Source: Ichthyosporea sp. XGB-2017a (taxonomy: Eukaryota; Opisthokonta; Ichthyosporea). From it: a stretch of DNA of 64,000 bases. Location of the stretch: the NCBI GenBank assembly GCA_002811675.1, contig PDIM01000005.1, positions 51,417 to 115,416 of the forward strand, given 5' to 3'. Of this stretch, positions 1-20,523 are shown in pieces. The notes beneath the pieces are model-generated. The model was not told the DNA's origin, ran no database searches, and saw nothing but the letters and a program-made list of their open reading frames with translations. Positions within the stretch are counted from its first letter, which is position 1. Each line of letters opens with the position of its first letter. The position numbers and the translations under genes were made by a program.

Positions 1-269
1 TGTTTTATGTGGTTTTGGTCAGCTTGTGACTTGTGCAAAGACTCTCTTCAAGAAAGTTTAAGAATCCAAATCCTCTCCAAGTTGCACAGTCTGCCTCTGT
101 TTGTTTCTTGTTTTCTTGTTTTACCGGGCCCTTGACGCACTGAACCGTGCTGTACTATCAGAAGGACACCAAAGCGCTATCTAGTGCTAACGTTTGGAGG
201 CTGCTGGTATATGTATATGCGTATAAGTGAATTGCGTGTCCTAAAGGGACTCTCTTACGTTATAGAGAC
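1..269. other. Intergenic, upstream of first gene
   Basis: This is AT-leaning sequence upstream of the first ORF, presumably its promoter and 5' UTR. I see no coding signal. The window edge cuts whatever lies to the left. Confidence 0.4.
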
Positions 270-3200
270 ATGTACCAAGACAGGGTATGGGTGGGAAGAA
301 AATTAGAATCAGAGCGGGAGCATGCTACTGAGGAAGAACAATGGGGCATCAGATTTGTCTACGAAAAGATAGCACAAGTGTTTCTTGGTGAGGATGCCGG
401 TGAAAAGCCGGTTTCTAGTGGAGATTGGCCCTTGCGCCAAAGCGAACGTAGACATCGCTTTAGCAGTTTCTTAAGGGCAAATCTTTTTCTCTCTCCAGGA
501 GAATATGCATTGTATGAGCGATGTCGAGTGTTAGATTTTGCCGACGATAACGTACAGATTCAACATTGTTTTACGGGGAAAGGCGAGGGTTTTTTTGTAA
601 CTGGTCTGTACCTTTCTAACAAGCGGTTAGTATTTCGTAAAGTGGAGGGGGGGGAGGATGGTGCAGTTCAAATATTTCATCTACAGTGGTTCGTGACAAG
701 TGGTAAAGAAATTACGACTGGTAGCTTTTGCTGTGAGGCAGAGTGGCTTTTGGCTACGTGTCAAGATGGATCTGTCTACCTCGTTCCTTTTAAGTCACTT
801 ACAACCCGAGCTGCTGCTGCACAGGGACCAAATAATACAAGGGGAGCAACTAAAGAAGCCAATCCTATTTCTGATAAAAGGGTGCTTGGGTACCAAGACG
901 ACGTGACACTTATTGGGTCTGTTTCGGGGAAACCGTCGTCCATCGTCGTGTGGTCTTCCAAGACCTCTCTGAAGGAGTATTGTATTGTGGGAAATAACAC
1001 AGGGAGCATTTTCTTCATTGATATTATAGCAAGGGAAAGGGGGCATTTGGTCAAGCTTAAAAGTGGAATTGTTGATTTGCAGATCGCTGAGATTGAAGAC
1101 CATCAGACCCTTTCTACATTCCTGTATATCACCTGTGCAACCGGATGTTTTTCTCTTTTACTTGAAAGGACTTTTCAGAATATGGTCAGTGAAAAGCCGT
1201 CATCTCGGAGGAATTCTCTTGCTCATGAAAATATTATTCTCAACGGAGACAAGAGCAGATATCAGCCAGTCAAGACAATCAACAGTCCTGTAGTGGATGG
1301 GCAGTTCTTGGCTTCTATCCAGATGTTGCAAAGCGGTCCTGCTTTGGGCATTCACCAATTTGATCAATCCGGAACATTTAGCATTTACGACCTTGCAGGA
1401 GATCCCAATCGCTTCCCTTTGTACGTTTTGTCGATTCCAAAAGCTTCCAGGCACGTTCAGTTGTCTGAAAGACTTATAGTGTGTGCGAAAGAGCCCACGG
1501 AAAACTTAGAACGCAAAGGACCACAAGAACGCAGCTCGCTCGTCATCCTGTCAAAAGTCGCATGTGATTCTTCCTGGGCTCTTGTAAGATCAAAGGGACT
1601 TGTGAGTGAAGCGGGGGACACCACTGAAACGGATCCCACCGTACTGCAAGAGATCACGTTCTCGCGTGGTGAAAAAGTACTCGAAATTGCTTGTTTGAAT
1701 TCTTATAATCGTAAAGGTGAGGAACAAGCAAATGAATTGGACATTTCCTTTACAAGTTCCAATTTTGATACTGATGAAAATGCTTTAGAGACTGAGAGTT
1801 CAAGCAGTACAAGGGACGAAAACAAATTGCAATCATTTGTTGTAACAACTAATTTCGGAGTGTATGAAATTGTCCCTTGCTTGTCCGCAGAGGATATTTT
1901 CCTTGGGATGATATTAATGGGCTCGGCTGTAGTGGATCGAAGAGCAGAGTTTTTTGGAAAATCGATGGGTTTAGATTTATTTGGTTTATATGAAAATGCA
2001 GCTGATAATGTGCTTGCAGACCTGGGATGTGTTATTCAGGAAGCTCGTAAAATGGCAGGTGGGCTTCCGCAAGGCCTTTTTTTTAATCCTGATGTGCTTG
2101 ATAGTCTCAATTCACTTATTATGAGGGCTTTGCATATTTACCATTTGTCAAATGTCGGGTACGAGAAGATGATATGCAAATTTGTTAGCATAGGAAGACT
2201 TGATGTTGTGATTGATTATCTATTGGTGATTGTAAAAGACCCTGAAAACCTTGAAAAGACTAAACTACAGCACCTTTCAGACGTTCTGCTTGTGTGCCTA
2301 CTTTTTGAGGCGATTCGCAAAACGCCATGTAGAGAACTATACCGTAAAGACATTAGAGTGCAGTCCAAGTATGATATCGTTGAAGGTCTTTTACACAGCA
2401 ACGCCCTAGCTCTGGAAGCATTTTTGGTGGAAAATAGATACTATAACTTTGAAAAGGCTTTGACACTGTTCATTGATTTCAAGCTAGTAATATATGCCCT
2501 TCTTGCTGCCCATTGTCGAGATCGAATGCCCCATGCACTGAAAGCGTTTTACGGGAAATGTATTTTCGAGTTTCCAAAAAACTGTAGGTCCTTTCTGGTG
2601 TACTATAATTATTTAGAAGATATGTGCTCCTCATGCAATGGATTTTTCATGGACACGTTCCCAACAGAAGAAGCCTTTGAAGCCCTGTTGGCAAATGGAT
2701 TGACAACTTTCTCAAAAAGTAAGAGTTCGTACCTCAGGTCCATAATTCCTTCGTTAAATAATTCGGGTCTTTTGCACAGAGCTGCTAGCTTCTTTGTTCC
2801 GAGTGGAGTTCTGTGTACAAATTTGTATGAACGTAAATACTCTGACTCGGATGTGGTGGGCCAAAATAGCTCTTGCTCCGATCATATTGAGTTGTTTTTA
2901 TTATCATGTATTTATTTGTTACGGGCAGAAAACAATCACTTTGTAATGGCATCATCAAATTTCAAAACTTTTTTACTTTCTCTTTCCAGTGAGCATTCAA
3001 TTGGTTTTGCGAAGAAAGGGAAAGAAGAATGGGAATTCGAGGAAATGTTTAGCCAGTGCTTAGCTGGGACATTCGGGACGTTTAATTCATTGGCTATCCT
3101 CCATGCTAGTACGGCATGCAAACTGTGGAATATTTGCGCGGAAGTTCTAGAAAGCCAGAATTGCTTTTCTGAAGCTTTTCAGTTCAGGTGCAGGGTCTTT

Positions 3201-3950
3201 GAGAGCCAACCCCGAGAATCACCAAGTCGAGAGTCCGTTCTGAAATGTTCTTTTTGGTATTATGTCAAACAAACTCGTGGGGTGGCTGCCTCATGCTTTG
3301 ATATTCTCTGTGCGGTACTTTTTGCCGGCCTTGATCTAGCTGTTTCTGTACAGGCTCTTGAGGAGATGTGTACAGAATGTCTTGATGACTTGGTGCCATG
3401 TTTAAACATACTCCTGATGGGTGAGACTGGCTCGTGCTTATCGAAACATCAGGCTAACTGTTGCAAAGTGCTAAAGCCTTTGATTTGCCAGTTCAGTACA
3501 CAATTTTTTGTGAAACTCATGTATGCCAATGTAAAGAAACTAAATTGCATGCAACCCACCGAATCCCGTGAAACCAAAAAACTTATATCTGAACTTTCGT
3601 ACAACTTGTCGCGGATAACTACCCCACAGTCGGTGATTAGGAATATGAAACTGGATGGGAGAAGCTACTCCGATGATAACGGTGTACTGTCTATCGTTTG
3701 CTTCACTTGCCTTCACTCCTACAGGCGAGATTATTTTATTGATGTTTTGCTGAAGAAGCTGTTGGAAAAGCTAAACTGCCTTCCAATTCCCTACACTATA
3801 TCCGCAAAACTCACATTTTCAGAATACAGACAAAAAACCTGCAGCCTGCCTTGCCCAGTCTGTCTATTTAATGATTATATTATTCCACAACATCAACATG
3901 TACCATCCGAACAATGTAAATTAGAGCCCTGGACAACAAATAGCAAATAA
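270..3950 (+). CDS. Large propeller/solenoid-like protein with C-terminal zinc motif, family unassigned
   Basis: This is one uninterrupted 1226-residue ORF starting at the ATG at 270. The first ~550 residues are rich in short beta-strand-like segments with repeated small/hydrophobic turns, as in WD-like propellers. From about residue 560 onward the sequence looks all-helical, as in an alpha-solenoid. Near the C-terminus (about residues 1145-1210) there is a CxxC-x-H group followed by CxxxCPxC, which could bind zinc. This order resembles nucleoporins of the Nup133/Nup155/Nup160 type and membrane-coat or tethering proteins (VPS8, BLOC-2 class), some of which end in a RING-like finger. I could not recognise a specific orthologue, so no function is assigned. 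The gene is convergent with the P2X gene, with 74 bp between stops. Confidence 0.85.
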   Translation: MYQDRVWVGRKLESEREHATEEEQWGIRFVYEKIAQVFLGEDAGEKPVSSGDWPLRQSERRHRFSSFLRANLFLSPGEYALYERCRVLDFADDNVQIQHCFTGKGEGFFVTGLYLSNKRLVFRKVEGGEDGAVQIFHLQWFVTSGKEITTGSFCCEAEWLLATCQDGSVYLVPFKSLTTRAAAAQGPNNTRGATKEANPISDKRVLGYQDDVTLIGSVSGKPSSIVVWSSKTSLKEYCIVGNNTGSIFFIDIIARERGHLVKLKSGIVDLQIAEIEDHQTLSTFLYITCATGCFSLLLERTFQNMVSEKPSSRRNSLAHENIILNGDKSRYQPVKTINSPVVDGQFLASIQMLQSGPALGIHQFDQSGTFSIYDLAGDPNRFPLYVLSIPKASRHVQLSERLIVCAKEPTENLERKGPQERSSLVILSKVACDSSWALVRSKGLVSEAGDTTETDPTVLQEITFSRGEKVLEIACLNSYNRKGEEQANELDISFTSSNFDTDENALETESSSSTRDENKLQSFVVTTNFGVYEIVPCLSAEDIFLGMILMGSAVVDRRAEFFGKSMGLDLFGLYENAADNVLADLGCVIQEARKMAGGLPQGLFFNPDVLDSLNSLIMRALHIYHLSNVGYEKMICKFVSIGRLDVVIDYLLVIVKDPENLEKTKLQHLSDVLLVCLLFEAIRKTPCRELYRKDIRVQSKYDIVEGLLHSNALALEAFLVENRYYNFEKALTLFIDFKLVIYALLAAHCRDRMPHALKAFYGKCIFEFPKNCRSFLVYYNYLEDMCSSCNGFFMDTFPTEEAFEALLANGLTTFSKSKSSYLRSIIPSLNNSGLLHRAASFFVPSGVLCTNLYERKYSDSDVVGQNSSCSDHIELFLLSCIYLLRAENNHFVMASSNFKTFLLSLSSEHSIGFAKKGKEEWEFEEMFSQCLAGTFGTFNSLAILHASTACKLWNICAEVLESQNCFSEAFQFRCRVFESQPRESPSRESVLKCSFWYYVKQTRGVAASCFDILCAVLFAGLDLAVSVQALEEMCTECLDDLVPCLNILLMGETGSCLSKHQANCCKVLKPLICQFSTQFFVKLMYANVKKLNCMQPTESRETKKLISELSYNLSRITTPQSVIRNMKLDGRSYSDDNGVLSIVCFTCLHSYRRDYFIDVLLKKLLEKLNCLPIPYTISAKLTFSEYRQKTCSLPCPVCLFNDYIIPQHQHVPSEQCKLEPWTTNSK

Positions 3951-4024: not shown

Positions 4025-5248
4025 TTACATAAGAGAATCCCCCTCCGCGTGTCGCAGTGGGGTGCTACTGTCCACGGAATTCCGCGAACGCGAATGATAC
4101 AATTCCCTCAAAGTCTCGTCTTCTTCAGGTCCAATAAGGCCATCTCTTAGGTCAGAAAAGTCAACAGTTTCTTTGTATTTATACCGAAAATAAACCTCTT
4201 TCTCGGGCATGAAGCTACATGCAAGAATGTCAATCAGCAGCGTAGACAATGCTATCAACCCCGACCCGGCAACCAAGCTCAAAAGTAAAGCTTGAAAGTC
4301 AAAAATCCCAATTTCCCCCCTTTGTTTGATTAGGATGCGAATTCCATGACGATCCCACTCTTGGATATTTTCGCTATTTGTTCCAGACTTCAGCTTCTCC
4401 ATTGCCTTGTATTCGGTATTTTTAATATGCCTGGCCGTTATCGTATACCGAATATCATTTGTATCATACGAGATGCGATTCGAATACTCAATTGTTAGTA
4501 GAATGATTATCCCTGTATATCGCATACTTTTTTCGATACTGAGCCGAGTGTTTTTCACCTCAGAATCAATATCAAGACTATCAATTCCAGCGACTTTCAA
4601 AAGAAGGCCCAGTTCAACAATGTCTAATTTTCCCCTTCTTCCAACAGTGTTGATTCCCTTCGTTTCAACCACATTTCCAGAAATATCTTTCAAAGAACCA
4701 GGCATTGCTTGAGCATTTCTCTGGACGCCAAGATTGGTTGCATATATTGTATGATCTAGCATTAGAGTAAAGTGCTCAATGTCTCCAACGTAAACGTTCT
4801 TAACGGCCCCTTGTGGTTTGTACCTGCATTGAGGATCTTCCCAGTGGCAGTCTAAGGACATATTTTGCATGGCCACCCGTGTTGCGCCCAAGATGGCAGT
4901 CTCTTCTGTCAATGGATACTGCACCAAACTCTCATCCCAGTACTCACAAGGGAAGTTAGTAAAGTTGCGAATAGTGGGTGCAGTTTGCAGACAATAAGGT
5001 AAATCTTCCATTGCCATTGGAGATCGAGGTTTCATTAACGACATCCTTACTGACCCTTCCGGTTTCTCTAGTTGAAGATATCTCTTTTCATATATAATCG
5101 TATACCCCACAATGTAAAGGAATATAAGGAAAAGAACACTGTAGTGAAGCAATCCAAGCCTTCTATCAAGAATCTTCACCACCCTCACAGTCTTATACGA
5201 GAAGATCCTATCAGCGTCCAAAGACGCAAACCAATTTCTCAATCCCAT
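4025..5248 (-). CDS. P2X-type ATP-gated cation channel
   Basis: The 407-residue product has the two-TM P2X layout. A short cytosolic N-terminus contains the YKTVRVVKI motif and the LGLLHYSV stretch (residues about 18-38). TM1 spans about 32-52 with YIVGYTIIYEKRY, as in animal P2X subunits. A ~265-residue extracellular loop follows, then HGIRILIKQRGEIG and TM2 at about 318-345. Just after TM2 is YFRYK (353-357), the conserved YxxxK trafficking/stabilisation motif. An NxxR pair before TM2 matches the ATP-contact region of the family. P2X subunits trimerise to form ATP-gated channels at the plasma membrane or, in some protists, on contractile vacuoles. Loop cysteines are fewer than in vertebrate P2X. 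It is encoded by one exon, head-to-head with the methyltransferase gene 382 bp away. The family call is firm; location and ligand are inferred. Confidence 0.93.
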   Translation of the reverse strand: MGLRNWFASLDADRIFSYKTVRVVKILDRRLGLLHYSVLFLIFLYIVGYTIIYEKRYLQLEKPEGSVRMSLMKPRSPMAMEDLPYCLQTAPTIRNFTNFPCEYWDESLVQYPLTEETAILGATRVAMQNMSLDCHWEDPQCRYKPQGAVKNVYVGDIEHFTLMLDHTIYATNLGVQRNAQAMPGSLKDISGNVVETKGINTVGRRGKLDIVELGLLLKVAGIDSLDIDSEVKNTRLSIEKSMRYTGIIILLTIEYSNRISYDTNDIRYTITARHIKNTEYKAMEKLKSGTNSENIQEWDRHGIRILIKQRGEIGIFDFQALLLSLVAGSGLIALSTLLIDILACSFMPEKEVYFRYKYKETVDFSDLRDGLIGPEEDETLRELYHSRSRNSVDSSTPLRHAEGDSLM

Positions 5249-5630
5249 TCTTCAATCTGCACTTCTGTTGGTATTATATATTCATCAAGAGCTGAAAGAG
5301 TTGGAATATCTAAATTAAAAATACTCTACATAATAACACAAGTAATAATAACAATAACTACCTCTCCTTGCCCTTGGGAATAATAATCGTCAATGAAATC
5401 AAGGAGCGCCAGCTGGTTGGTCCATAGTGGTTAGCTGCCTGGGGTTATGGCTAGTGTGTGGAATGGGGATAGCTGCAAGAGTGGGATATTCAAGGAATGT
5501 GGTTATCGAGGTGTGTGTTGTGTATCTTCCTCAAGCGGTGTTGGACACTGACAGAGACTGACTCTTGGAACAGATCAACCCCCCTCCCCTCCCTCCCTCC
5601 TGTCTAATCCTGCTCCACTGTATTGTGGTG
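5249..5630. promoter_or_regulatory. Shared intergenic promoter region, P2X / methyltransferase
   Basis: This 382-bp spacer lies between the ATGs of two divergently transcribed genes, so it must hold both promoters and 5' UTRs. It contains an AT-rich TAATAATAACAATAAC-like run near 5341-5362 and a pyrimidine-rich stretch at 5579-5601 just before the methyltransferase start. No specific factor site was recognised. Confidence 0.5.
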
Positions 5631-8439
5631 ATGCCCGGAAGGAGCAAACGAAAAGACCGTTGTGGGGCAGAAGCCCCAGGTGAACGAGAGTGTGCAGATG
5701 ATGGGTCTGGACTTGTGTGGGTCCAGTGCAATCATATTACTTGTGAGAAGTGGAGACGTGTAAGTAGTTCGGATGTGGCTATTGAGGCTGCTCAGCAAGA
5801 GCCTTGGTACTGTTGCAGCATTGCTCAAACAGACACAGAGGAAAACTTGACGGACACAAAGCTTGGGGAACAGTGTGGTGGTAGCCCCAAGAGGTGTAGT
5901 GTATGTCAGAAGACAAGGATAATTAATGTGACTCGAAATGGTACTCGAACGCAAGATTTCGATGAGTGGAATTGCTGCTCCATTGAGTCCGAGACATCAG
6001 GTCCTCGAAAGGCCCACAAAAGTAGCAGAATTTTTGGTGGCGACCCCCCGAGCTTAGGTGATTGTGAACGATGGATTATTTGCATGAATGAAAACTGCAG
6101 GAAATGGCGAGTGAACAAAAACTTAGCTATTAAGCAGAAACGACCGAAAAACTGCTGTGAAATCATAGAAGATAAAGAGGTCTCTCAAGAAACGGAGAAT
6201 ATTATTGTGGACATTCTTAATGATGGGGATGATGCGGCGCTAAATAATACTACGACACCAAATGTCAAGCAATGTAGTCTTTGCGGCAAATGGCGAATGG
6301 CTTCTTCCCAGATTCTTAGCAGCGCATTTACCTGTTGTGCTCAAGACTGCGACTTAAGGGAGTTTTGCTCAGAAGTAACAGACTTTGAGGCAGAAGAAGA
6401 AATGTTTGGGGCAGCCAAAAAATCGAATGATGAAGACGACTTCCTGTCGCATATTGAAGGAGAGGTAATGAGTTGCACTGAGTTTTGGAAAAAACTTCGT
6501 GATTATGGTTTGCTAGAGAGATGCTGTGTAAAGAAAAAATATGAATTTATGTGCTGTGAGGCGGGTTGGGAGGGGTCTTTTATGGCTTGTTGCGATGTGT
6601 GTGATGAGTGGGTCCATGGCGCTTGTGAAGGCATTGTTGATGAAAGTCAATGTCCCTATTTTTTTGTTTGTAAAGGATGCCGTGGTCTTGCTAATATTCT
6701 GATGGAATCATTGAAAGCTATAACCGATGAGGTTCGGCTTGCTCAAGCAGGTGAGATACAACCTTTTGATTCAAATGCCATTCTTTGTTGCTCTAAAAAC
6801 AAAAAAAACGGTGTGCTGTTGCACTGTAAAGTGTGCAAAGGATGCTTTCACAAAGTATGCGTTTGGCCTTGGGGTAAGCCGACAGCTGACGATATATATG
6901 TGTGTAGACAGTGCAACTTGCTTATTTACAAGACCAAGAAACATTGGGAAGACCAAAAGCTTAATAACGAGTGCTTTCTGAGCTGCTCTGTGTATAGCTA
7001 CCAGAGTTCTGGAACAGATACGTGTCGTTACTCAATTTGTGAGATGTGCTCCAATTTCTTTTTGTCTGAATTCAGTATGAATGGCTGGGAAAAGGAATTG
7101 CTCTGCCCAAAGTGCTGTCTAGATCCAGACCAGCTAGATATTGATGTTTGTGGAGGTAATGGTGAAAATGATGATATCGACCGTGGTTTGTTTTTATTTA
7201 GTAAGACCGAGTCTGGCGGCTTTAGAGAAAAAAAAAATTCTGAGCAAGCTTTTAAAGGCCCTTGTGACATTTTAGTACATATGCACCCTGAATACCTATT
7301 AATTTTGGGGGACTTCACTGAGCTAAGTAGGGCCAGCTTTCCTTCTAAGGTTGTGGATTTTGCTGCAACTGATCCGCCGTCTGGAGCCAGTGCACCAGTT
7401 AACACTTGGGACAAGCGAATTTCTGTATTTAACTTCTGGATGTCGATTGAACGCCTTGTGAAAGACGATGCTGCGGTGACAGTAATGGGAGCGGGACAGT
7501 TTGTGACGGATTGGGCTGTTAGAAATCGTGATTTGAACGCCTTCATCAATTCTGACATAAATGAATCTCAGTCACTAAAAGGCTACGAAGCTTGGAAAGA
7601 GTTTTCAGGCAATTTTCTAAAGAAGGAAATTTTCCTTCCGGTTCGAAACGGCAGAAAGAAGGACCTTTACAAAGATGTCTTTTTTAGCCGGGGTGGAGGT
7701 GAAGGAGGAAATAGTCCAATATCTCCTGCAATTCCAGTTTATCGATATAACTGGTATTGGTTAAACAATATTTTAGGATTTCCAATGCTTCAACACTCGA
7801 TGCCCCAGCGGTTTGTGGAGGAAATCTGCGTATTTTATAAATCACCAGAATGTGTCACTTATCACCCCCCCTATGTTGCCCTTCCTTTTCTTTCTACGGT
7901 CGAAAGAAGTGCAGATGATAACCGGTCTTACAAAGGCGAATCCTCGCGAGCTGAGTATTACTTCAGTGCGGATTTGAAAAACTGTGTTAGCAACTTTTTG
8001 CCTATTCCATTTGAGCCATTCGAGTTTCCGGGCTCGGCCAGGCGTCCCGCTGGGCTACCAATGCTACACCCTCATCGAAAGCCGCGCAAGCTTTTTCAAT
8101 TTCTAGTTGAGACGTATTCTGAAAATGGAGACATTGTAATGGATCCTTTTACCGGAAGTGGTAAGTTTTAAAATCATGTTTGGCTTTGTATATTGCCTTG
8201 TTTTTAACTGAATGCCTTCTTATTTCTTGTGTGTTGTTCTATAAGGTACAACTGGAGAGGCATGCATGTTATCTGCACGAAGATTCATTGGTACAGAAAT
8301 CATGTATAATCATTTTAAAATGGCTCGTTCCCGCTTGGATACCTACTATCGCGGAACAACATTTCGAACTAAAGATTTAAGGCGATTAATACGAGCTTGG
8401 AAGGAAGTTGACGCTGTAAAAGCACATTCCACGGAGTAA
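5631..8439 (+). CDS. CW- and PHD-finger chromatin reader fused to beta-class DNA methyltransferase
   Basis: Two exons, 5631-8160 and 8246-8439, are joined by a GTAAGT...AG intron at phase 1, giving 907 residues. The start is the ATG at 5631. The N-terminal half carries four Cys-rich modules: residues ~27-60 and ~143-185 are clear CW-like fingers (WVQC/WIIC, then KWR, then W/NxCC); ~88-125 and ~213-250 are shorter relatives. Two PHD fingers follow (~303-350 with CDVCDEWVH; ~380-430) and a further Cys-rich module (~446-505). The C-terminal ~330 residues are an N6_N4-type DNA methyltransferase in beta order. Motif IV is DPPSGA with a following WD (~581-594), then the FYKSPE region, a LHPHRKP segment (TQKP-like), and motif I DPFTGSGTTGEA, which is rebuilt across the splice. 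CW and PHD domains bind H3K4-methyl or unmodified H3 tails, so the inferred role is chromatin-guided DNA base methylation. Motif IV has Ser where Tyr/Phe/Trp is normal, so activity is uncertain. Confidence 0.9.
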
Positions 8440-10642: not shown

Positions 10643-13600
10643 TTATCTCCTTATTTCGCTGTCCGTAGATATATCATCACCATCTGCCAGCTCAATTTCG
10701 CTGTGGGGACCACCACCCCCTATCTCGGCACTCTCTTCACCAACCACATTGCTATTGCCCTTTGTTTTCCTCGGACCAATCGACTTGTAGTTAGCAAGAA
10801 GATAATCTTTCAAAGATGTTATTTCGAATGAACCATCAGAAGGCGTTGAACATGATACTTTGCTCCAATTGGAAAAGTTCTTCGTAGAGAGCATTAAGCA
10901 AGAAAAAAATTGAATCAGAATTGCGACCTGCTTTTCCTCGCTTTCCTCGAGTAATGTGGCAAGATAACTTAAAAGCTGTAAAAATGTATTCCTATTATCT
11001 GCCATTTTGCTCAAATAATTTACAGACAATGCTAATCTCCTTGAGTTTAACGGCTCGTCCTTCAGTGAAAGAAGTGCAATTTTGCAGACGTCATGAGCAT
11101 GTTCAGAAGAATAGATATCTTCATGTGAAGAAGATAAATCTTCTACTTGACTTTTTCTTGGCGAAAAAATTTTCTGGTATGAATTTAAGTATAGCTGATA
11201 TCTCAATCCTTGGCGCTTGGTTCCATTATAAAAGCCAAAAAGAATGTCGAGGGAAGTTGATGGGTTTCGTTGAATTCTTCTCAAGCCCATCCCTATACAA
11301 TTGAATATAAAGCAACCTTTGTCAATCGCTATAAACATTGGGTACTACACAGTAAAGAATTTTCTTATGTACTTACATTGGACTCCAGAAAACAATCGAA
11401 TTTTCTCAATTTCAAGGCTATGTTTCTTATTGGCCGCAGTATATTCCAAAGAAAATAACGTATACTTTTTTGTTTGTTTCACGGTGACTGCTGTCAATAC
11501 ACAGTATGAAAATAGAACGGTCCCCATTGGGTAAATCTGCTCTTTCACAGAAAATGCCTCAAATAAAATGAGGATAACTGCGGTAATGACACCAGTGCAA
11601 GGCAAAGTTCGGGTATAAATGTTTGCCCAGTCAATATAGCTTTGGTTTGTGCGAGCAAGCCAAATTAACATCAAGCTACTTAGGAGAGCGACGAAGGCTA
11701 AGTTTGCTATAGGGTTGGAACCAAAGTGAAGAGTGCTCAGAATTAACGCTGTTTTGTAGTTTTTGTATACCAATATGTATATCCCAGTGAATTTGATATC
11801 ATTATCTTCCTCGAGCTCTTGCCAAATGTGGCCCAAAAGGAATGAGCCAGGGATGAATGTGAAAAGACATATATAGGAAAATGAAAACAGTCTCCAATAG
11901 TTGTCATTAAAACACTCAAGTTTACACACACTTGTCATATAGATACCATCAAATTCCTTGATGTAGGCACAGGAATTCACTCCAAGAATGGTTTCCACCA
12001 AAGGAAAATACAGCCCTGTGCTCAGGGCAACTAGAAGGGGTATGGCAGGCTTCATGAGTATCGCCCCAACTTTGGTCTTCTCAAGTGTAGAGTCGACCCC
12101 GTAATATATAAGACAAGAATAAGCAGTCCATAAGCAGGCAGCGGCAAGACAAATAATATAAGATATTTCACTTTCTAAAGCCAAGCTCAAATACTGCAGC
12201 ACCTTAAATGTTTGCCTGTCTTTTGACAGCCATCCCAAGTCAGATTTAAAACATATTCTTACTATTTGAAAATGTTCCATGCCAATAATAGCTAGGGAAA
12301 CATAATTCGCTAAATTATGACGGATTTTAGACCTGCGAACGACATGAACTTCGAAATGTGTCAAAATTCGATTAATGACATACCAGTCTATTACAAATAC
12401 GAATACTACCAACGCGCACGTAAATGCCAAAACAATACTCTCAGCTGAAGCATTACCTCTAGGATCACCATCGAAGAGGAGAAAGATCCAGGGTTCTTGA
12501 TTTTCTGCTTCTCTTGAACACGATGGGGAGACAGGGGCAATATAAGGAGGGCTCTCCAAGATCGCCCTTTCAAATGTACTACCTGGAAAGTGCATTTGCT
12601 GAGTTATTCGAAAGGGGGGGGGTGTTGTCTCGTATTCAAACAGCTCGCAGCTACCTATTGTACGAAATACAAGGTTCATTTGCCCAGTAGAGTTTTTTAC
12701 TGCTTGCCCATTTCTAACTATCATTCGTGTCTTTAGCAGCTCTCCTTGACCACTGAGAGATATGTTTGTCAAGATTCCCTCTACTTCTGTTTTAGATATT
12801 TGGTCAAGCAATAATAACTCTGAAACGTGAATGGAACTTCGTCCTTTCGCATTGATTATGGTAAGGATACCTTGCGTTTTGATGCATGATTGGCTTTCAT
12901 ATATACCACTGCAATTCGCTCTGTCAAATATATCATCGACCAATGCTGATGGAAGATAACACAAGGGTGACGTGGTAAGTTCTGTTCCGTGTTGAAGACA
13001 AGTCGGCTCTAGTCCTTGCGCAGCCATGTCCTTGTATGTGTTATTTACAGCTCGCATAAGGATGTTGGCTGTATCATAACCAGTCATTGCTGTAGTCTCA
13101 AAAATAGTAGGCTCTCCCTCTAATCCGGTGTTAGTAGCCAAAAGAAAAACTGATTTGTCAGAAAGTTGCTCCACCAAATTTTCATACTTCTTAAACTCTG
13201 CGTTGTTTTGTGGCCCTGGGGTAACAGTAAATAACCCATGAAGTATATCCAGATTTTGATTTAAGTATTCTTGTCCTAACTCATAGTACCAATCATCATA
13301 AGTGATGAACACATAGTCACTTATGCCATTTCCAATCATTTTTAATGACCTGGCCTCTTCGAGTATCAATATATATTCTTCAATCTCCTCTACGTTAACA
13401 AATATAATTCGGGAAGGATATCTCGTTTTTACCTGAATAAGAGTATTGCGAATCAAAAGCCTATTGTCATTCGCACGAAGTGTAACGACATCCACTTTGA
13501 TGCTTCCCCGGAATGCGTGGATAGCAGTTACCAAACCACTCAAAGCGTCATCTTCAGTAACAATGGCCGTGACATGCCACCATTTCATTTTTTGCGAAAA

Positions 13601-15202
13601 TGATATTGAAGTTTTTAGACGAGCCATACTATCTGGGCCAGGGCGAACTAAGGAGGGGTAAAATTCTTTGTCTCTCAATGAAGAAGAAGTAACTGGTCCA
13701 GCTATATGTGGGATGTTCGATGCTGAAGTTAAGGATGCCATAGTGAGAGCAACAGACGACAGTGACGGGCCCACAACAGCAACTGGGTGGCGGGCATTTG
13801 CATTTGAAATAAAATGGCTAGCACCAAAGTAATAGACAGCCAAATCATTCAATGCGGAATTGGTCACAGATATATTTTTGGAAACTTCAAATCTCTTCAA
13901 TCCCAACTCAAACCCTTTGAGGAAGGCATTTCCAAAGCTTCTGGTGGTATTACTAGGAAGATAGAGTTGGGTAATTATTGGGGCTGTATACTGAACTGTG
14001 CTTTCGTTATATATTGGAACCCAGTTTTCCCAGATAGCTTTGTTTTTTTTCAACCAAGAACACGCAGCCGATGCAGGCTCTTTTAATTTGTTAATATCTC
14101 GCAGCATATCTGAAATCAAAAAATTGTCTAAAACAATATTATTAATTAGCTCATAAACAGGAGGCTGGAACTCCTCGAGCTTGTAATCAAAGACCTTAAG
14201 AAGTCTTTTAGATTCAAAGTCACATGCTAGTGGGCCTGATGGGTGACTCGTATCCCCCTGAATACATTCTACAGTTGGTGTCGGGAATGACAGTCTAAAT
14301 ATCAAAGTCGCATAGAGGGCGGTGAACTCAGAAGGATCCCAGTTGTATACTATGAGGTGCTTTCCTTTGTTTAGTGCATCTCCTACCAAATCCATGAAAG
14401 AAGTTCCTAGGTAGACAATAACGAGCTTAATATTATTGTTATTGATCATCTGAGGCAAGAAGCCTATATCATGGGTCGGATATGTTGACCATAGCTGCCG
14501 ACACTGAGTTATATCTGATGAACAGGCTTTCGATATAAACATGCCTGTTACAGGGTCACACCAATCTAGTACTTCAGAATTGCAGACAAACTTTCCATTG
14601 ACTTTTTCTGTAGCTAGATCATTATAAGCGGGAAGGGATGCCAGAACCGCGGCGTCATTCAGAATTGTGTAGTCATTAAAAGTTTTCGCCGGAAAAGCAG
14701 TCTTTAATGAATTGGACATATAAACCCCTGATAATCCAATCAAGGCGCTCTCCTTTGCGCTTACTAGCTTTTGACTAGCCGCGGAAGCAAATGATTTCCT
14801 AAATTCCCCACTTATGTCCCATACTTCCAAATTGAATGTTGTAACTTTGTTTGCGGTGGAGCTATAAGGATTATAAGAGGCGTTGAAAGGGGCAGCAATG
14901 CTAATGTTGGACTGAATCACCATTGTGTTTCGCTTGTTCATCACTTCCTTTAGCAAATATGCCCCCAGATACCCAGATATAATACTGGAGTTCCAGTCAT
15001 GTGTGTCGAAGGAAAAGTTAGTTACAATGCTTGGCTTATCATACCATCCAAATTTTCTGACCTCTGACTCCTCAAAGCACTTTGGCAAAGGAAGAATATA
15101 TTTCCCTGGAAGCCCTTTGTATGGTACTAGCTCTGCGGGGATCTGAACAATAAGCAATAGTCCAACAAAGACAAAAATAATGTCGTGCCCCCCTCGAAGC
15201 AT
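10643..15202 (-). CDS. Class C (GABA-B-like) GPCR with two stacked ligand-binding ectodomains, copy 1
   Basis: Two exons, 15202-11377 and 11292-10643, are joined by a GTAAGT...TAG intron at phase 1, giving 1491 residues. A signal peptide (1-~24) is followed by a ~370-residue domain resembling the glycine-betaine type (OpuAC-like) substrate-binding protein, with GWYDKPSI near its start and a WLKKNKAIWENWVP end. Next comes a type-I periplasmic fold (ANF receptor) at about 400-800, with the VAVVGPSLSS and GYDTANILMRAV segments. The seven TM helices lie at about 915-1245. The ~245-residue cytosolic tail contains a helical block (about 1340-1430) shared with the neighbouring paralogue, then an acidic end. 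The absence of a Cys-rich linker makes it GABA-B-like rather than glutamate-receptor-like. Class C receptors couple extracellular small ligands to G proteins; the ligand here is unknown. It is divergent from its paralogue (634 bp between starts). Confidence 0.9.
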
Positions 15203-15835
15203 TTTGAGGTGTGAATGAATGGGGTTTTCTAGGTCTTGTAGACACCCATACTAGACCGTCTCTATCCAAAAATTCCGCTATCTTCACAAGTGAATAATTC
15301 GAGCAACTTAAGTGTTGGTGCAGAGAGAATAGATGTGGTTTTCCAATCTGTAGGTTACGTCTGATTCAGCATTTTAAAATGCTCAGGGAGACAAACATGG
15401 CCTTCGACCTTTATATTATATATCAGATAATAATATAACTTGCATTTATTCAAGGCTTGATTTATTTATATATTTAGTAAGCGTGAGTCGCGATTACCAT
15501 ATATGGGGTTTCAGCAGCCATAAATGGTCAAGAGGTTGTACACATATGGATTGGCGTTTGCTTGGCTGTAATCATCATTCAATTAGCAGGATATTTTTGC
15601 TGTTATACGTAGGAAAGAATATTAGCGCTTCACAGCCTCACCATCAAAATTAGACTATGAATCAAAATTAGATTATGAATCTTGCCAATGTGGTATAGAA
15701 GTATTGAAGACGCAGAATATGTTATAACTTAAGTTCAATCCAAGAAGGAATATTTAAATAGTGGCGATGAGGACTGTAGTTCCAATTTTAAACGGGGGGT
15801 AGTCACACTTGCACCTAGTATAAGGTCATTAGAAA
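15203..15835. promoter_or_regulatory. Divergent promoter region between the two receptor genes
   Basis: This is an AT-rich spacer between head-to-head paralogues. It contains an 18-bp near-perfect tandem duplication, ATCAAAATTAGACTATGA, at 15643-15660 repeated with one change at 15661-15678, and several TATATA runs around 15410-15475. No specific site was identified. Confidence 0.45.
15643..15678 (+). repeat. Two-copy 18-bp tandem repeat
   Basis: The unit ATCAAAATTAGACTATGA is followed directly by ATCAAAATTAGATTATGA, one mismatch in 18. It sits in the promoter region of the receptor gene that starts at 15836, so it could be a duplicated regulatory site or simple slippage. Confidence 0.8.
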
Positions 15836-18800
15836 ATGGGGGCTGTGTCGAAAACCAAGAGCCAGTTGTTGGTTATCTTTCTGCTGGGGCTTTGGATTAT
15901 AGCCAATGGACAGCTTAGTGTGGATGGAAGAACAAAAATTTCGATGCCCACAACTAACTGTATTTCTACATCAGACGCACAATCGTATGGATGGGATCCA
16001 GTCACTCGTCCTGTGGTTATATATTCAGATTTATGGGAAGGAAGTCAAGCTATCAATGCCATAATTGCTATTCTTTTGAAGGAGGTATATTCATATGAAA
16101 ATGTATCTCTGGAGGTTGGGCAATATCGATTCAACCAGAGCGTGCATATTGATCAGCCTTATGAGTCTTTAAACACCAACTTAGCTTACATTGCAGGGGA
16201 CGTGTGGTCAGGTAGCCAGGCGTGGTATGATAGGTACTATGGAGGAGCTGTGGGGGGGATAGATATTACTATAAAGAATGGCCTTGCAACTCGTCCGGGA
16301 CTGTTTGTTACAAAGAAATTGACAACAGATTTCCCAGCCAAAGATTTCAGCAAGTACTCAGTTCTTCAGGATAGCAGTGTTCTTGCTGCATTACCACCAT
16401 ACAACTTCCGGGCTTCAGGCAAAGATTCTTCTGGGAACTATTTTTGCACTGCAAATAAGTTTCCATGGTGTGATTCTGAAGGGCGATATGTGCCTCCCCA
16501 ATGCCAAGCAGACATAACTGCGTGTAGGCAAATATGGCACAGATATCCCGAGGATTCAGAAGGGCAGCTTGAGCAATTGATCAAAAATCATCAACTTCTA
16601 CTTATCGTAATCTATTTGGGGGATGAGCAATATACGTACGCAAAAGGGATTCTTGATGCTGGGGCACAATCTTTTGCTGTTTACACTTGGGAGGTTCGTT
16701 CTTCACTTCATGCTTTGCACGCTTCCTCTCTGGTTAGGATACCATTTACTTCCGTTAAAGAAGGTGAGTCCTTTGTCATGCTAAAGCATCGGTTACTTGT
16801 GCTAACTATGAGTTATATTTTCGCTCTTCTTAATTAGGTTGTGTTGAAGATTTAACCATTGCTCCAGCCACAGGCAAAAGAACATGTGACTGGTTTTTGA
16901 AGTCAAACGCAATTTTGGTTAGCAGCTCTGTCGAGGTTGCTATGCCCAATGCGCTAGTGTTTCTAAACGACTTCTTGACAGATTCCTCTACTATGACTTC
17001 TATTATTGCCGATAGCTTCGCGAGCGATATTATAACTGCTTCGTGCAACTGGATTAAGACCAAAGGCAGTACTTGGAGAAATTGGGTAAATACGAAGACC
17101 ACAGAAGATAAAGTTTTAATTAACTTAGTACCCATGTTGCCCATGTCGGGTCCAAAGGGCGGGCAAGGCGTGTCTATCTTTGAAGGGATACGTAGTGGAA
17201 TACAGAAAAATTTTCATCTAATTGATTCCAAGGTTAGATTAAGCTACGAAAAGATCCTTGATCATAGATTGGAACCGGTCGTCGCGCGACAACAAATAGT
17301 TGCTCTTTTGTCAAACACATCTGTTCACGGGATTTTAGGTCCAATGGATGGTGCAACAGTATTAACAGTACAAGGGCATACGTCCTTGTATGGGATTCCA
17401 ACAATCGACCAGGGAGTTTACGGCACGGCCTTTGAAGACAAAGCTGCTTACCCAACGCTATACAGGGTTGCACCAAAAGTTGAGAGATTTATGGATTTTG
17501 TTAATTTGTTGTTCAAAGAATTCAAGTGGGTGAACGCTCACGTTCTACTTACGAACTCTCCACTGGGGTTGGACGCTTCACGTGGATTGCTAATTAACTC
17601 GAATTCGGTCATCCGCTACGAGAGTAATACCTTGCTCAATGAAAAAGGTTCTAAATCCCAGCAGCAGTCGGAAATATCAGCTTTCTTAAAGAAAGTTGAG
17701 TCTGGCAGATCGAGAATAATTATTCTTGTTTGTGATATTGCTCAAGCACGAATGGTAATAGAGCAAGCGGCACAAAGGCAGCTTATTGGAACCGAAGAGT
17801 ATATTTGGATAGGTTTCGATAACTGGGCCAACGAATTGTTAATCAGAGGTTGGTCCGGATTTGAGAAATATTTGAACGGATTGCTCATTATTTCAAGGTA
17901 CTCGGACCTTAATATTTTGGATGATAAAACCGATGTTAAGTGGGCGTTGGTAGGGGAATCTGAAAGGTCATTTAGTATTCCTATTAACTCTGAGGTGAAC
18001 AGCGCACTTGGATACGATTCGGCCCTTTCTTTTATGATTGCGCTAAACAAAACAATAGCAAATCTTACAAGTACCGGAATACCCGTCAACTGCTTGTCAC
18101 CATACGTTTTTGGAAGAGTACGAGTCGCACATATGTGTGAGTTGTCTAATGATCAAATGAATAATATAAGAGAAAGAATATTTTGTTCTGGGGCATACAA
18201 CTACACAGGATGTAAAGAAATCAAAGCGATGCAGTTACTAGGCTCTGAAGAGCTTAGAATTCTTTCAAGTACCGCTGATAATGATATCACTAAGAATCCT
18301 CGCATGTTGCTGTTACTTAACTTAGCAGAGGTAAACTTCCGAAGTGCTGGTGGAATCGGTGATTTTTCGTTTGACAGTATCAATGACAGGAATGGTGCGG
18401 ACGGCTTTCTTTATAATTTCGTGATGGCAGGAGACAGTAACATTTCTGTTAAGCGCATTGCCACATTCTCTGCGGGTGAGAAAGAGTTCCCCCAAATGAC
18501 CCTTATTGATACTGGAGCTGTGCTTGGGGCAGGGACAAGAAAAGAGTTCAAAACTCAACTACCCTCTGATACGAAGGTTGCGCTGAGCAATTGCGAGAAA
18601 CTTGATAGCCAAGGTGTGCCTTTCTCTACGGATAGAGATCTCGCTTTGGAAGTGAATTTTTATGGGGAGCTTTTAGCAGCGATAGCTGTTCCGAGCTTGG
18701 GGCTTGTTCTTATCGGCGTCTGCGTTTTGTCATCCAAAAGAGTGATCTTTTTGTTAAAGGAAAGGAAAGAAAGAGAGAAGCAGGGCAAAGAAGCTTCCAA

Positions 18801-20523
18801 GTGGGGTATTGCAAATATGGTCCTTCTATTATTTTATGTGGCAGAGAGTTTTCAGGTCCTTGGTGTTTTGTTTGCGCCGCGATACTCATTTGCAAAAGAT
18901 ACCAACATCCCTTACATTGTCGCATCAAGCTTTGGACTCTACGTGGCCTTTGAGTGGTCATTCTATATATACTCATTTCTTGTTTTTGTTTTCTTGAGCT
19001 TACTTCTGTTTGTTAGAAACTTTGACTATCTATTTACTACCCAGTTCGGAAATGTATGTCTTCGTTTGATAATTTCGTTTTTGCAAGTTGTATCTCGACC
19101 CCTTTTCTTTCCATGTATTACATCTCTGATTTCTCAACTTTCTTGCTCATATATAGAGTTAGAAGACAAGGGCTATTTGATCAACTTTTGTGATGATCTA
19201 GTTGAATGTGGAACCTCAGTGCAGAAGATAAAGGCCACTATATCATCTGCTCTCCTTCTCCTCTTCGTACCTGTAGTTATGTATTTGGGAAATGGTATAG
19301 AAAATATAGGCCCGAAAAAGGATATCGAAATGGGGGAGCTTTCGTTTCTTGTAGCCACTCTATTCAAATGTATACTTGCTCTTTTGGCTTCTTTCGCTAG
19401 TTACAAACCTCTCTTGTATGTCTCCTTTCTGACAGGGATCATTGCTGTCTATATTATTTTCTTGTCGATTAATAGAGCTTCATCGAGTGGCAGTATCAAT
19501 ATGTTCTTGCTCTTCATCTTCAGCTCCTGGTTGATTAGTGGGGTTATTCTTATTGTAGCTGAGTCAATATCTGCAAGTGATTATGAGCTTATATTTCCTA
19601 CAATTGCAGTCATTGATACTTGTGTGATCGTATTTGGAATGCTATTCTCATTTCGCAAACGCGAGAAAGCTAACGAAAATGAGGGTGGGGCTTATGGTCC
19701 CAAAAAAATTTCTCGAAAGTTGACAATGAAAGCCAAAGCACTTGTAAAAGCTGTTACCCGCCCCTCTGCTGTTATTAAAGCTCAGAAGGTTCACGCTTTG
19801 ACTGACACCAAAGCAAGGATGATAAGAAATGTTGAAAAGGAGCAGACCGAGGACATGTTTAATGAAATCGCTTACATCTGTGCATTGAATCGGCAGTGCC
19901 AGTTTTTAAACCCAGAATTGCTTCGAGAAATGATTTCGTTATTACATTCTCAGCCTGAATTTTTTATTCAATTGTTTGCGGCACATGATACAGAAGCATC
20001 ATCCCGTCACAGGAAAGCTATATTCTCCATATCGTTTATTCTTTTGTCATCAGATCTTGAGATTCTTCACAGGTCAGATGAGAATCCAAGCTACCAAACG
20101 ACAATGAACAAATTGGAGATGCTTCTCTTGGCATTTATGCCGGACGATGCACTGGTTCCTATCACAAGTAATATTGATCAAAGTGGGGATAGTTCAGAAG
20201 CTAACAAAAAAGCTTTGTTCCAAACACCCATTCAAGGTGTTTTTATTGGAGAAGATGGAATAAGCAATGGAAACGCTGAGGAAGGTGTTGTTGATATCGT
20301 AGAGCCTTTCTGTGATGTGAATTCGTCCACAGAGAGCATCCAGGCCAGTATTTTGGCCCTACAACACAATGATCGTGATGAAGAAGACAAAGAAAGACAA
20401 GCCAATGGCGATGGCGATGCAGAAAAGTCAAACGTGCAAGTGACTTCAAGACAAGAACAAGAAACAATAGAAGCAGAAGTAGAGTTACCGTGGGTCTGCA
20501 CCAACGATGATGACCAGTCATGA
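15836..20523 (+). CDS. Class C (GABA-B-like) GPCR with two stacked ligand-binding ectodomains, copy 2
   Basis: Exons 15836-16763 and 16838-20523 are joined by a 74-bp GTGAGT...TTAG intron at phase 1, giving 1537 residues. The join reads KEGCVEDLT and restores alignment with copy 1. The layout matches copy 1: signal peptide (SQLLVIFLLGLWIIANG), an OpuAC-like domain to about residue 400 ending in WIKTKGSTWRNWV, an ANF-type ligand-binding domain (about 410-850), seven TM helices (about 920-1247) and a long cytosolic tail. The tail has a helical block (about 1310-1414) clearly related to copy 1, then a Glu/Asp/Gln-rich end. Overall similarity to copy 1 is recognisable but distant, so the inverted duplication is old. 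The intron position differs from copy 1 (ectodomain here, start of tail there), suggesting independent intron gain or loss. Confidence 0.92.

Follow-up and report, generated by a model that had tools for sequence, protein, structure and literature searches.

The window analysed here is a stretch of 64,000 nucleotides (C5:51417-115416), and on its plus strand lies a gene in which chromatin-reader fingers are joined to a phage-type methyltransferase domain. The coding sequence (5631-8160 plus 8246-8439, in frame) begins with the ATG at 5631 and ends with the last base of the stop codon at 8439, so that its 2,724 bases encode 907 amino acids and a stop. The product is identical to the EukProt gene model Nk52_evm25s2209 (hereafter P0001) of the ichthyosporean Chromosphaera perkinsii, the Nk52_evm prefix being that given for C. 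perkinsii gene models in PMC6981761; on this ground the window is assigned to that species. A search of the genome (25.06 Mb, 291 contigs) found the gene once. Its features are listed in Table 1.

Table 1. Features of the reader-methylase gene (positions in the window; residues of P0001).
Feature	Position	Strand	Evidence or remark
Exon 1	5631..8160	+	P0001 residues 1-843 and first base of 844; one open frame
CW finger 1 (residues 30-62), both tryptophans kept, VWVQC..KWR	5718..5816	+	zf-CW E 5.8e-7
CW-like finger 2 (residues 89-116), tryptophans lost, KRC..KTR	5895..5978	+	Pattern match
CW-like finger 3 (residues 146-176), both tryptophans kept, RWIIC..KWR	6066..6158	+	Pattern, similarity to CW1
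CW-like finger 4 (residues 215-236), one tryptophan kept	6273..6338	+	Pattern match
PHD finger 1 (residues 308-350), CDEWVHGAC	6552..6680	+	Complete Cys/His pattern, PDB matches
PHD finger 2 (residues 386-428), Cys in place of the PHD1 tryptophan	6786..6914	+	Complete Cys/His pattern
Degenerate third PHD-like finger (about residues 448-496)	6972..7118	+	Read from sequence
Phage-type beta-class amino-methyltransferase core (residues 553-881, runs into exon 2)	7287..8160	+	PHROG_67
Motif IV DPPS (residues 581-584), TDPPSG context	7371..7382	+	P0002 identical; relatives DPPY/DLPY
Insert of about 60 residues (about 637-703), also in P0002, missing from aligned phage enzymes	7539..7739	+	Alignment
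Motif X-like HPHRKP (residues 813-818)	8067..8084	+	Alignment
Motif I, first part, DPFTGSG (AdoMet loop), finished in exon 2	8142..8160	+	Alignment
Intron, 85 bases, GT..AG, splits motif I	8161..8245	+	P0001 gene model agrees
Exon 2: remainder of motif I, motif II, C-terminus, stop codon	8246..8439	+	

Exon 1 holds all reader fingers and most of the methylase: motif IV, the target-recognition part and motif X, with the beginning of motif I. An artefact of gene joining is ruled out by a single open frame, 869 codons from stop to stop, that runs through the fingers and the methylase as far as the start of motif I. The initial annotation had described a reader-methylase fusion in a gene marked as eukaryotic by an intron inside motif I. 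Both points were confirmed, since the CW and PHD fingers and most of the methylase lie within one exon and the 85-base GT..AG intron is in place at 8161-8245. In G+C content and codon use the methylase half resembles the reader half and three neighbouring frames, which fits an old acquisition. Pfam was run on 6 of the 19 window frames of at least 250 aa, the frame of P0001 itself being set aside. Those around the gene are eukaryotic, with matches to a P2X receptor, a protein kinase, the ANF receptor (two frames) and a VPS39-like protein; the large frame 231-3947 gave no Pfam match.

The four CW-like fingers announced by the initial annotation were all recovered, finger 1 through its zf-CW match, the only one of the four above the Pfam cut-off, and the whole set through a cysteine pattern. 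This pattern, composed after the fingers had been seen, matched four times within residues 1-300; among 20,000 shuffles of these residues, 69 contained one match and none contained two or more. Similarity between fingers was clear for CW1 and CW3 and weak for the others. Finger 1 aligned to ZCWPW2 (4z0o, E 3e-6), and 4 distinct PDB sequences were matched at E ≤1. As to the two or three PHD fingers that had been proposed, two are clear and the third is degenerate, with no full match to the C4HC3 pattern. The Pfam PHD score of P0001 (E 0.013, 15.9 bits) is below the cut-off of 24, and the C4HC3 pattern is found twice. Comparison of the PHD region with the PDB gave 47 sequences at E ≤1. The best is the PHD-like stretch of a HORMA-domain protein (E 2.6e-5), followed by the PHDs of PPS, PHF20, Set3, MLL5, DIDO, PHF2, CFP1 and BPTF; the weakest matches, for example to spike proteins, are due to chance.

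Many of the PHDs among these matches read H3K4me2/3, and PHD1 retains the tryptophan found in such readers. Since both CW tryptophans are kept in CW1 and CW3 and the PHD tryptophan in PHD1, and the other fingers lack one or more of them or are degenerate, binding of methylated H3K4 is predicted for this subset of fingers only. The idea that the whole array reads the state of H3K4 thus stands for the resemblance of CW1 and PHD1 to known H3K4-methyl readers and is narrowed to a part of the fingers. Finger sequence and cage tryptophans are shared with the CW domains of ZCWPW2 and ZCWPW1 and with the PHDs of PHF20, MLL5, CFP1 and BPTF. To our knowledge, none of these proteins is joined to a DNA amino-methyltransferase.

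The C-terminal part was matched over its whole catalytic domain (residues 553-881) by the phage family PHROG_67 (E 1.8e-32). Pfam PF01555 (N6_N4_Mtase) scored above its cut-off (E 5.7e-18) and covered only the motif X/I part, residues 808-870. The motifs follow the permuted order, with DPPS at 581-584 (IV), the recognition part, HPHRKP at 813-818 (X) and DPFTGSGTT at 838-846 (I), so that the assignment to the beta class of N6/N4 methyltransferases, with motif IV before motif I, was borne out. Alignment with phage and GTDB relatives indicated that the residues of motifs X, I and II are intact. With tblastn, 682 of 50,697 phage records were matched, none of them across 80% of the query. The 20 matches listed all carried DNA methyltransferase or DNA methylase annotations, adenine-specific for several and 'cytosine methylase' for two records of one phage. 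In the PDB, the motif X/I region matched the N6-adenine enzymes DpnA, CcrM and MboIIA as well as N4-cytosine enzymes, so that the target base is not singled out; a tRNA methyltransferase was matched weakly (E 0.057). NCBIfam PRK13699, PRK11524, CcrM and TIGR01177 aligned to the same region, far below their cut-offs.

Relatives of the domain were confirmed in 13 of 19 viral-contig stretches and, for GTDB, in 6 of 22 (Anaeromassilibacillus, Haloplasmataceae, Tissierellia, Paenibacillus, Listeria, Clostridiaceae). P0001 and these relatives have in common the blocks WD, WYW/WIW, EEICVFYK-like, HPxxKP and GSG. Set against the consensus of the PHROG_67-type enzymes of phages and Firmicutes (DLPYG..WD, WYW, EEICVFYK, HPTQKPVELL, GSGTT), P0001 shares the motif order, W593 D594, Y706 W710, E730-F735, HPxxKP and GSGTT. 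It differs by DPPS in place of DLPY/DPPY, by the insert of about 60 residues, by a long stem in the tree and by its eukaryotic readers. An MT-A70 identity was rejected: PF05063 gave no match, and the best families are phage and bacterial DNA methyltransferases. The class proposed in the initial annotation, bacterial or phage-type and not MT-A70, is therefore upheld, the closest matches being phage and Firmicutes DNA methyltransferases; families of RNA or protein methylases scored less well than these.

Inspection of motif IV revealed a change that the initial annotation had overlooked. The last, aromatic position of [D/N/S]PP[Y/F/W] is a serine in P0001, while the aspartate and both prolines are kept. 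In known enzymes this aromatic residue stacks on the flipped base. The serine is present in both proteins of the fusion family with a readable motif IV, P0001 and P0002, and the recurrence of TDPPSG in P0002, which is 44% identical over 244 domain residues, indicates that it is no sequencing slip. Among the phage-type relatives, 226 frames from phage and GTDB loci matched a profile, 187 of them distinct; 165 were parsed for motif IV and 22 were not. The aromatic was present in 163 of the 165, in a set that leans towards the scan queries; two of the scans retained 80 relatives each, out of 260 and 278. The motifs were DLPY (103), DPPY (54), DLPF (3), DMPY, DVPY and DIPY (1 each), and DVPQ and DIPQ (1 each). 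Eight of the 22 unparsed frames were inspected: four read DLPY by eye, and four lacked the stretch or were cut. A second count, over 94 frames at 83 loci, gave DPPY 51, DLPY 4, DPPF 3, DPPA 3, SPPY 1 and TLPN 1, with 31 unparsed.

A small residue at this position was also observed in a group of prokaryote- and phage-type methylases, as DPPS in P0021, P0022, P0024 and P0028 and as DPPA in P0003 and the viral L291 and L292. These sequences carry FMG..WD after motif IV, and motif I is complete in P0021, P0022, P0024, P0028 and P0003, which suggests that the domain can be retained with a small residue there. The spacing from the glycine after motif IV to WD is 7 residues in P0001 and in this DPP[A/S]G group, versus 5 in most aligned DLPY rows. 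Inheritance of DPPS from the group is nevertheless disfavoured, because the P0001 domain scored 131 bits with the DLPY family versus 72 bits with the DPP[A/S]G group, and each half followed suit, with 31.8 versus 17.1 bits for the N half and 104.2 versus 59.1 bits for the C half. This comparison is biased, the DLPY profile (22 rows) having been derived from scans seeded with the P0001 domain and aligned jointly with it, and the DPP[A/S]G profile having 7 rows. Given the higher score, the serine appears to have arisen inside a family that otherwise uses an aromatic. A literature search by motif letters brought up three papers on lipids and nothing on DPPS or DPPA methylase motifs. As its motif IV is without the aromatic last residue, we file the P0001 methylase as a derived homologue rather than as a proven active member of the beta class.

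Three protein searches bear on the distribution of the fusion. With residues 560-905 as the query and proteins of about 499-1587 aa as the target, P0001 itself was the sole match among 2,227 candidates. A search over 3,058 candidates gave P0002 and 12 weaker methyltransferase matches. A third, over 3,993 candidates, gave 26 proteins: P0001, P0002, P0015 and otherwise phage- or bacterial-type methylases. P0002 (358 aa, on an ENA contig of 7,480 bases) has a PHD and a methylase in one frame, ends before motif I and is 39-45% identical to P0001. It was taken as eukaryotic on account of its PHD, which is above the Pfam cut-off (26.2 bits). By itself P0002 gave no PF01555 match with Pfam, and its methylase identity rests on the alignment to P0001 together with matches to PHROG_67 (E 1.4e-5) and PHROG_12862 (unknown function, 6e-13). 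P0015 (163 aa, on 14 contigs of up to 126 kb) is the AdoMet half, 47% identical to P0001; it begins after motif IV and is known from the methylase part alone. Gene calls made without introns are perhaps the cause of both truncations. The initial annotation had suggested looking for orthologues with the same fusion; P0002 is a relative in which the PHD-methylase fusion recurs, and P0015 is related to P0001 in the methylase part.

A viral-contig scan with P0015 matched at least 574 relatives, of which 80 were kept; these were at most 53% identical over a part, and P0015's own sequence was absent from them. A scan with A3 (one pattern) yielded 21 loci, 11 of which fell on contigs known from the earlier scans. 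The tree has 74 rows, selected out of 197 on length and with a 60% cut on identity. The C. perkinsii/P0002 pair was recovered at 100/100 beside the phage family, and its stem is 3.24 changes per column long. The pair was not placed inside any phage subgroup, deeper placement being weak in a tree with long branches, a bootstrap that had not settled and an outgroup that did not fall on one side. Capture of the methylase, as the initial annotation had put it, is likely; the tree placed no donor.

A second reader-methylase protein was observed in the same genome, as a 1929-aa frame on the minus strand at C27:14500-24400 (L003) matching PF01555 (E 5.3e-13). Like P0001, it combines a PF01555 methylase with PHD-like zinc fingers. 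Unlike P0001, it has motif I (FMGRGSD) before motif IV (SHPPY) and an extended PHD (PF13771, E 1.8e-8), which makes it another methylase type. ZZ-like fingers and a chromo/Tudor-like N-terminus were recognised in it by eye only. Its methylase matched 3 of 50,697 phage records by tblastn, and no relative was found in the viral contigs. One MT-A70 gene region was found in the genome (C167:82135-82761, L294), in exons, one of which has DPPW; we take its DPPWQLA..PTRGV stretch to resemble AMT1. An exon-by-exon search of the assembly, which may be incomplete, found no C5-cytosine methylase domain.

Among the closest known systems is the bdelloid N4CMT, described in PMC8885841 as a captured PF01555 enzyme with a chromodomain and said there to be without eukaryotic homologues. 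According to the same description, N4CMT is, like P0001, a captured permuted PF01555 methylase with a histone-reading domain in a eukaryote. By that published description the two differ in motif IV (SPPY versus DPPS) and in their readers, an HP1-type chromodomain at the C-terminus of N4CMT versus CW/PHD fingers at the N-terminus of P0001; no chromodomain was found among the Pfam matches of P0001 at E ≤1. Another point of comparison is the AMT1/AMT6-7/p1/p2 machinery. PMC12695648 is concerned with MT-A70 enzymes, treats AMT1 as the active 6mA writer and reports 6mA on 92% of C. perkinsii genes. Common ground with P0001 is the presence of 6mA in C. perkinsii and the PHD domain carried by the ichthyosporean AMT1 partner p1. 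In contrast to P0001, that machinery is MT-A70 and not PF01555, with reader and enzyme on separate subunits. PF01555 does not occur in the main text of PMC12695648, and the two mentions of 4mC matched in that paper apparently stand in its reference list. Among the papers listed in searches of a literature that leaves out most subscription journals, none describes a CW/PHD-methylase fusion in its title or start of abstract.

Taken as sequence evidence, these data point to a real and rare fusion of readers with a putatively catalytic core. The reading that we tentatively prefer, at somewhat short of even confidence, is that of a domesticated phage-type DNA amino-methyltransferase brought to chromatin by its own histone readers. 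CW1, CW3 and PHD1 would dock on H3K4-methylated nucleosomes at active genes, and the methylase core would engage the DNA beside the docked nucleosome. The core would then methylate an exocyclic amino group, with adenine N6 as a first guess from kinship and cytosine N4 as a possibility, and the DPPS site would give low or altered activity relative to phage enzymes. We rate catalysis on DNA by P0001 at about an even chance. It is favoured by the AdoMet motifs, the aspartate and prolines of motif IV and the kinship with DNA methylases, and a non-catalytic adaptor is favoured by the missing aromatic in an aromatic-using family. Against an active writer also speaks the presence of the DPPW-bearing MT-A70 gene in the same genome, AMT1 being the 6mA writer in the published account (PMC12695648).

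A methylase core that folds and binds AdoMet and/or DNA with no catalysis could account for the same features, P0001 then being a chromatin adaptor that perhaps guides another enzyme, such as AMT1, to H3K4-methylated nucleosomes. We consider this quite possible, if on balance improbable. Loss of the catalytic aromatic in both proteins with a readable motif IV agrees with it. So do the non-catalysing partners employed by MT-A70 systems, the PHD-bearing ichthyosporean p1 among the partners, and the co-occurrence of 6mA with H3K4me3 in most mapped species, two being divergent and C. perkinsii not noticed among them in that account (PMC12695648). The SPPY to APPA change that inactivates N4CMT points the same way, although both outer residues were altered in that mutant (PMC8885841). 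Retention of the motif IV aspartate and prolines and of the AdoMet signature DPFTGSGTT argues against a dead enzyme, as does the existence of the prokaryote-type DPPS/DPPA proteins, themselves putative enzymes. An active methylase of another substrate, be it RNA, single-stranded DNA or protein at transcribed chromatin, seems unlikely. The changed motif IV could mirror a changed substrate, the beta-class M.EcoGIX is described as preferring single-stranded DNA (PMC7736820), and weak matches to RNA methylases were obtained, namely TIGR01177 (E 1.5e-5) and the tRNA methyltransferase noted above; the top families, however, are DNA methyltransferases, and those of RNA and protein methylases score lower. 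Contamination or the misjoining of two genes is the least probable explanation and was rejected. That the protein searches returned a single named organism would suit it, but a single exon without a break holds the readers together with motif IV, base composition and codon use match the three neighbours, other frames of the window are eukaryotic, and in P0002, too, PHD and methylase are fused within one frame.

Returning to the domesticated methylase that we prefer, a wider and rather doubtful extension would place it in a second DNA-marking layer beside AMT1. There, a phage-derived DPPS methylase with a pack of seven reader fingers (one degenerate) would write 6mA or 4mC, or sense the state of AdoMet or DNA, at H3K4-methylated promoters, and together with the C27 protein it would represent two independent captures of prokaryotic methylases by chromatin readers within the same genome. 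Whichever activity it has, the protein physically links H3K4-type readers and a DNA methylase core in one polypeptide, which bears on the coincidence of 6mA and H3K4me3, and it does so in a cultured organism with a published 6mA map. It adds a further case, beside the bdelloid N4CMT, of a phage- or bacterial-type amino-methylase joined to chromatin readers. Its active site, kept but altered, raises the question whether captured methylases retain their chemistry or turn into readers, and the C27 protein is a second, different fusion of this kind within one genome.

Some further observations concern the window and the genome at large. The P2X receptor frame (an ATP-gated channel) adjoins the fusion gene at 4028-5251 on the minus strand (Pfam E 1.7e-16). 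ANF_receptor ligand-binding regions occur in two large frames, possible receptor genes, at 11348-15250 on the minus strand (E 1.1e-27) and 16834-20520 on the plus strand (E 2e-21). The only other place found in the genome with a CW finger is C168:139129-139251 (L047), where it closes a frame that matches SIR2 in part (E 2e-8); as a protein this finger scored 22.5 bits, below the zf-CW cut-off of 27.5.
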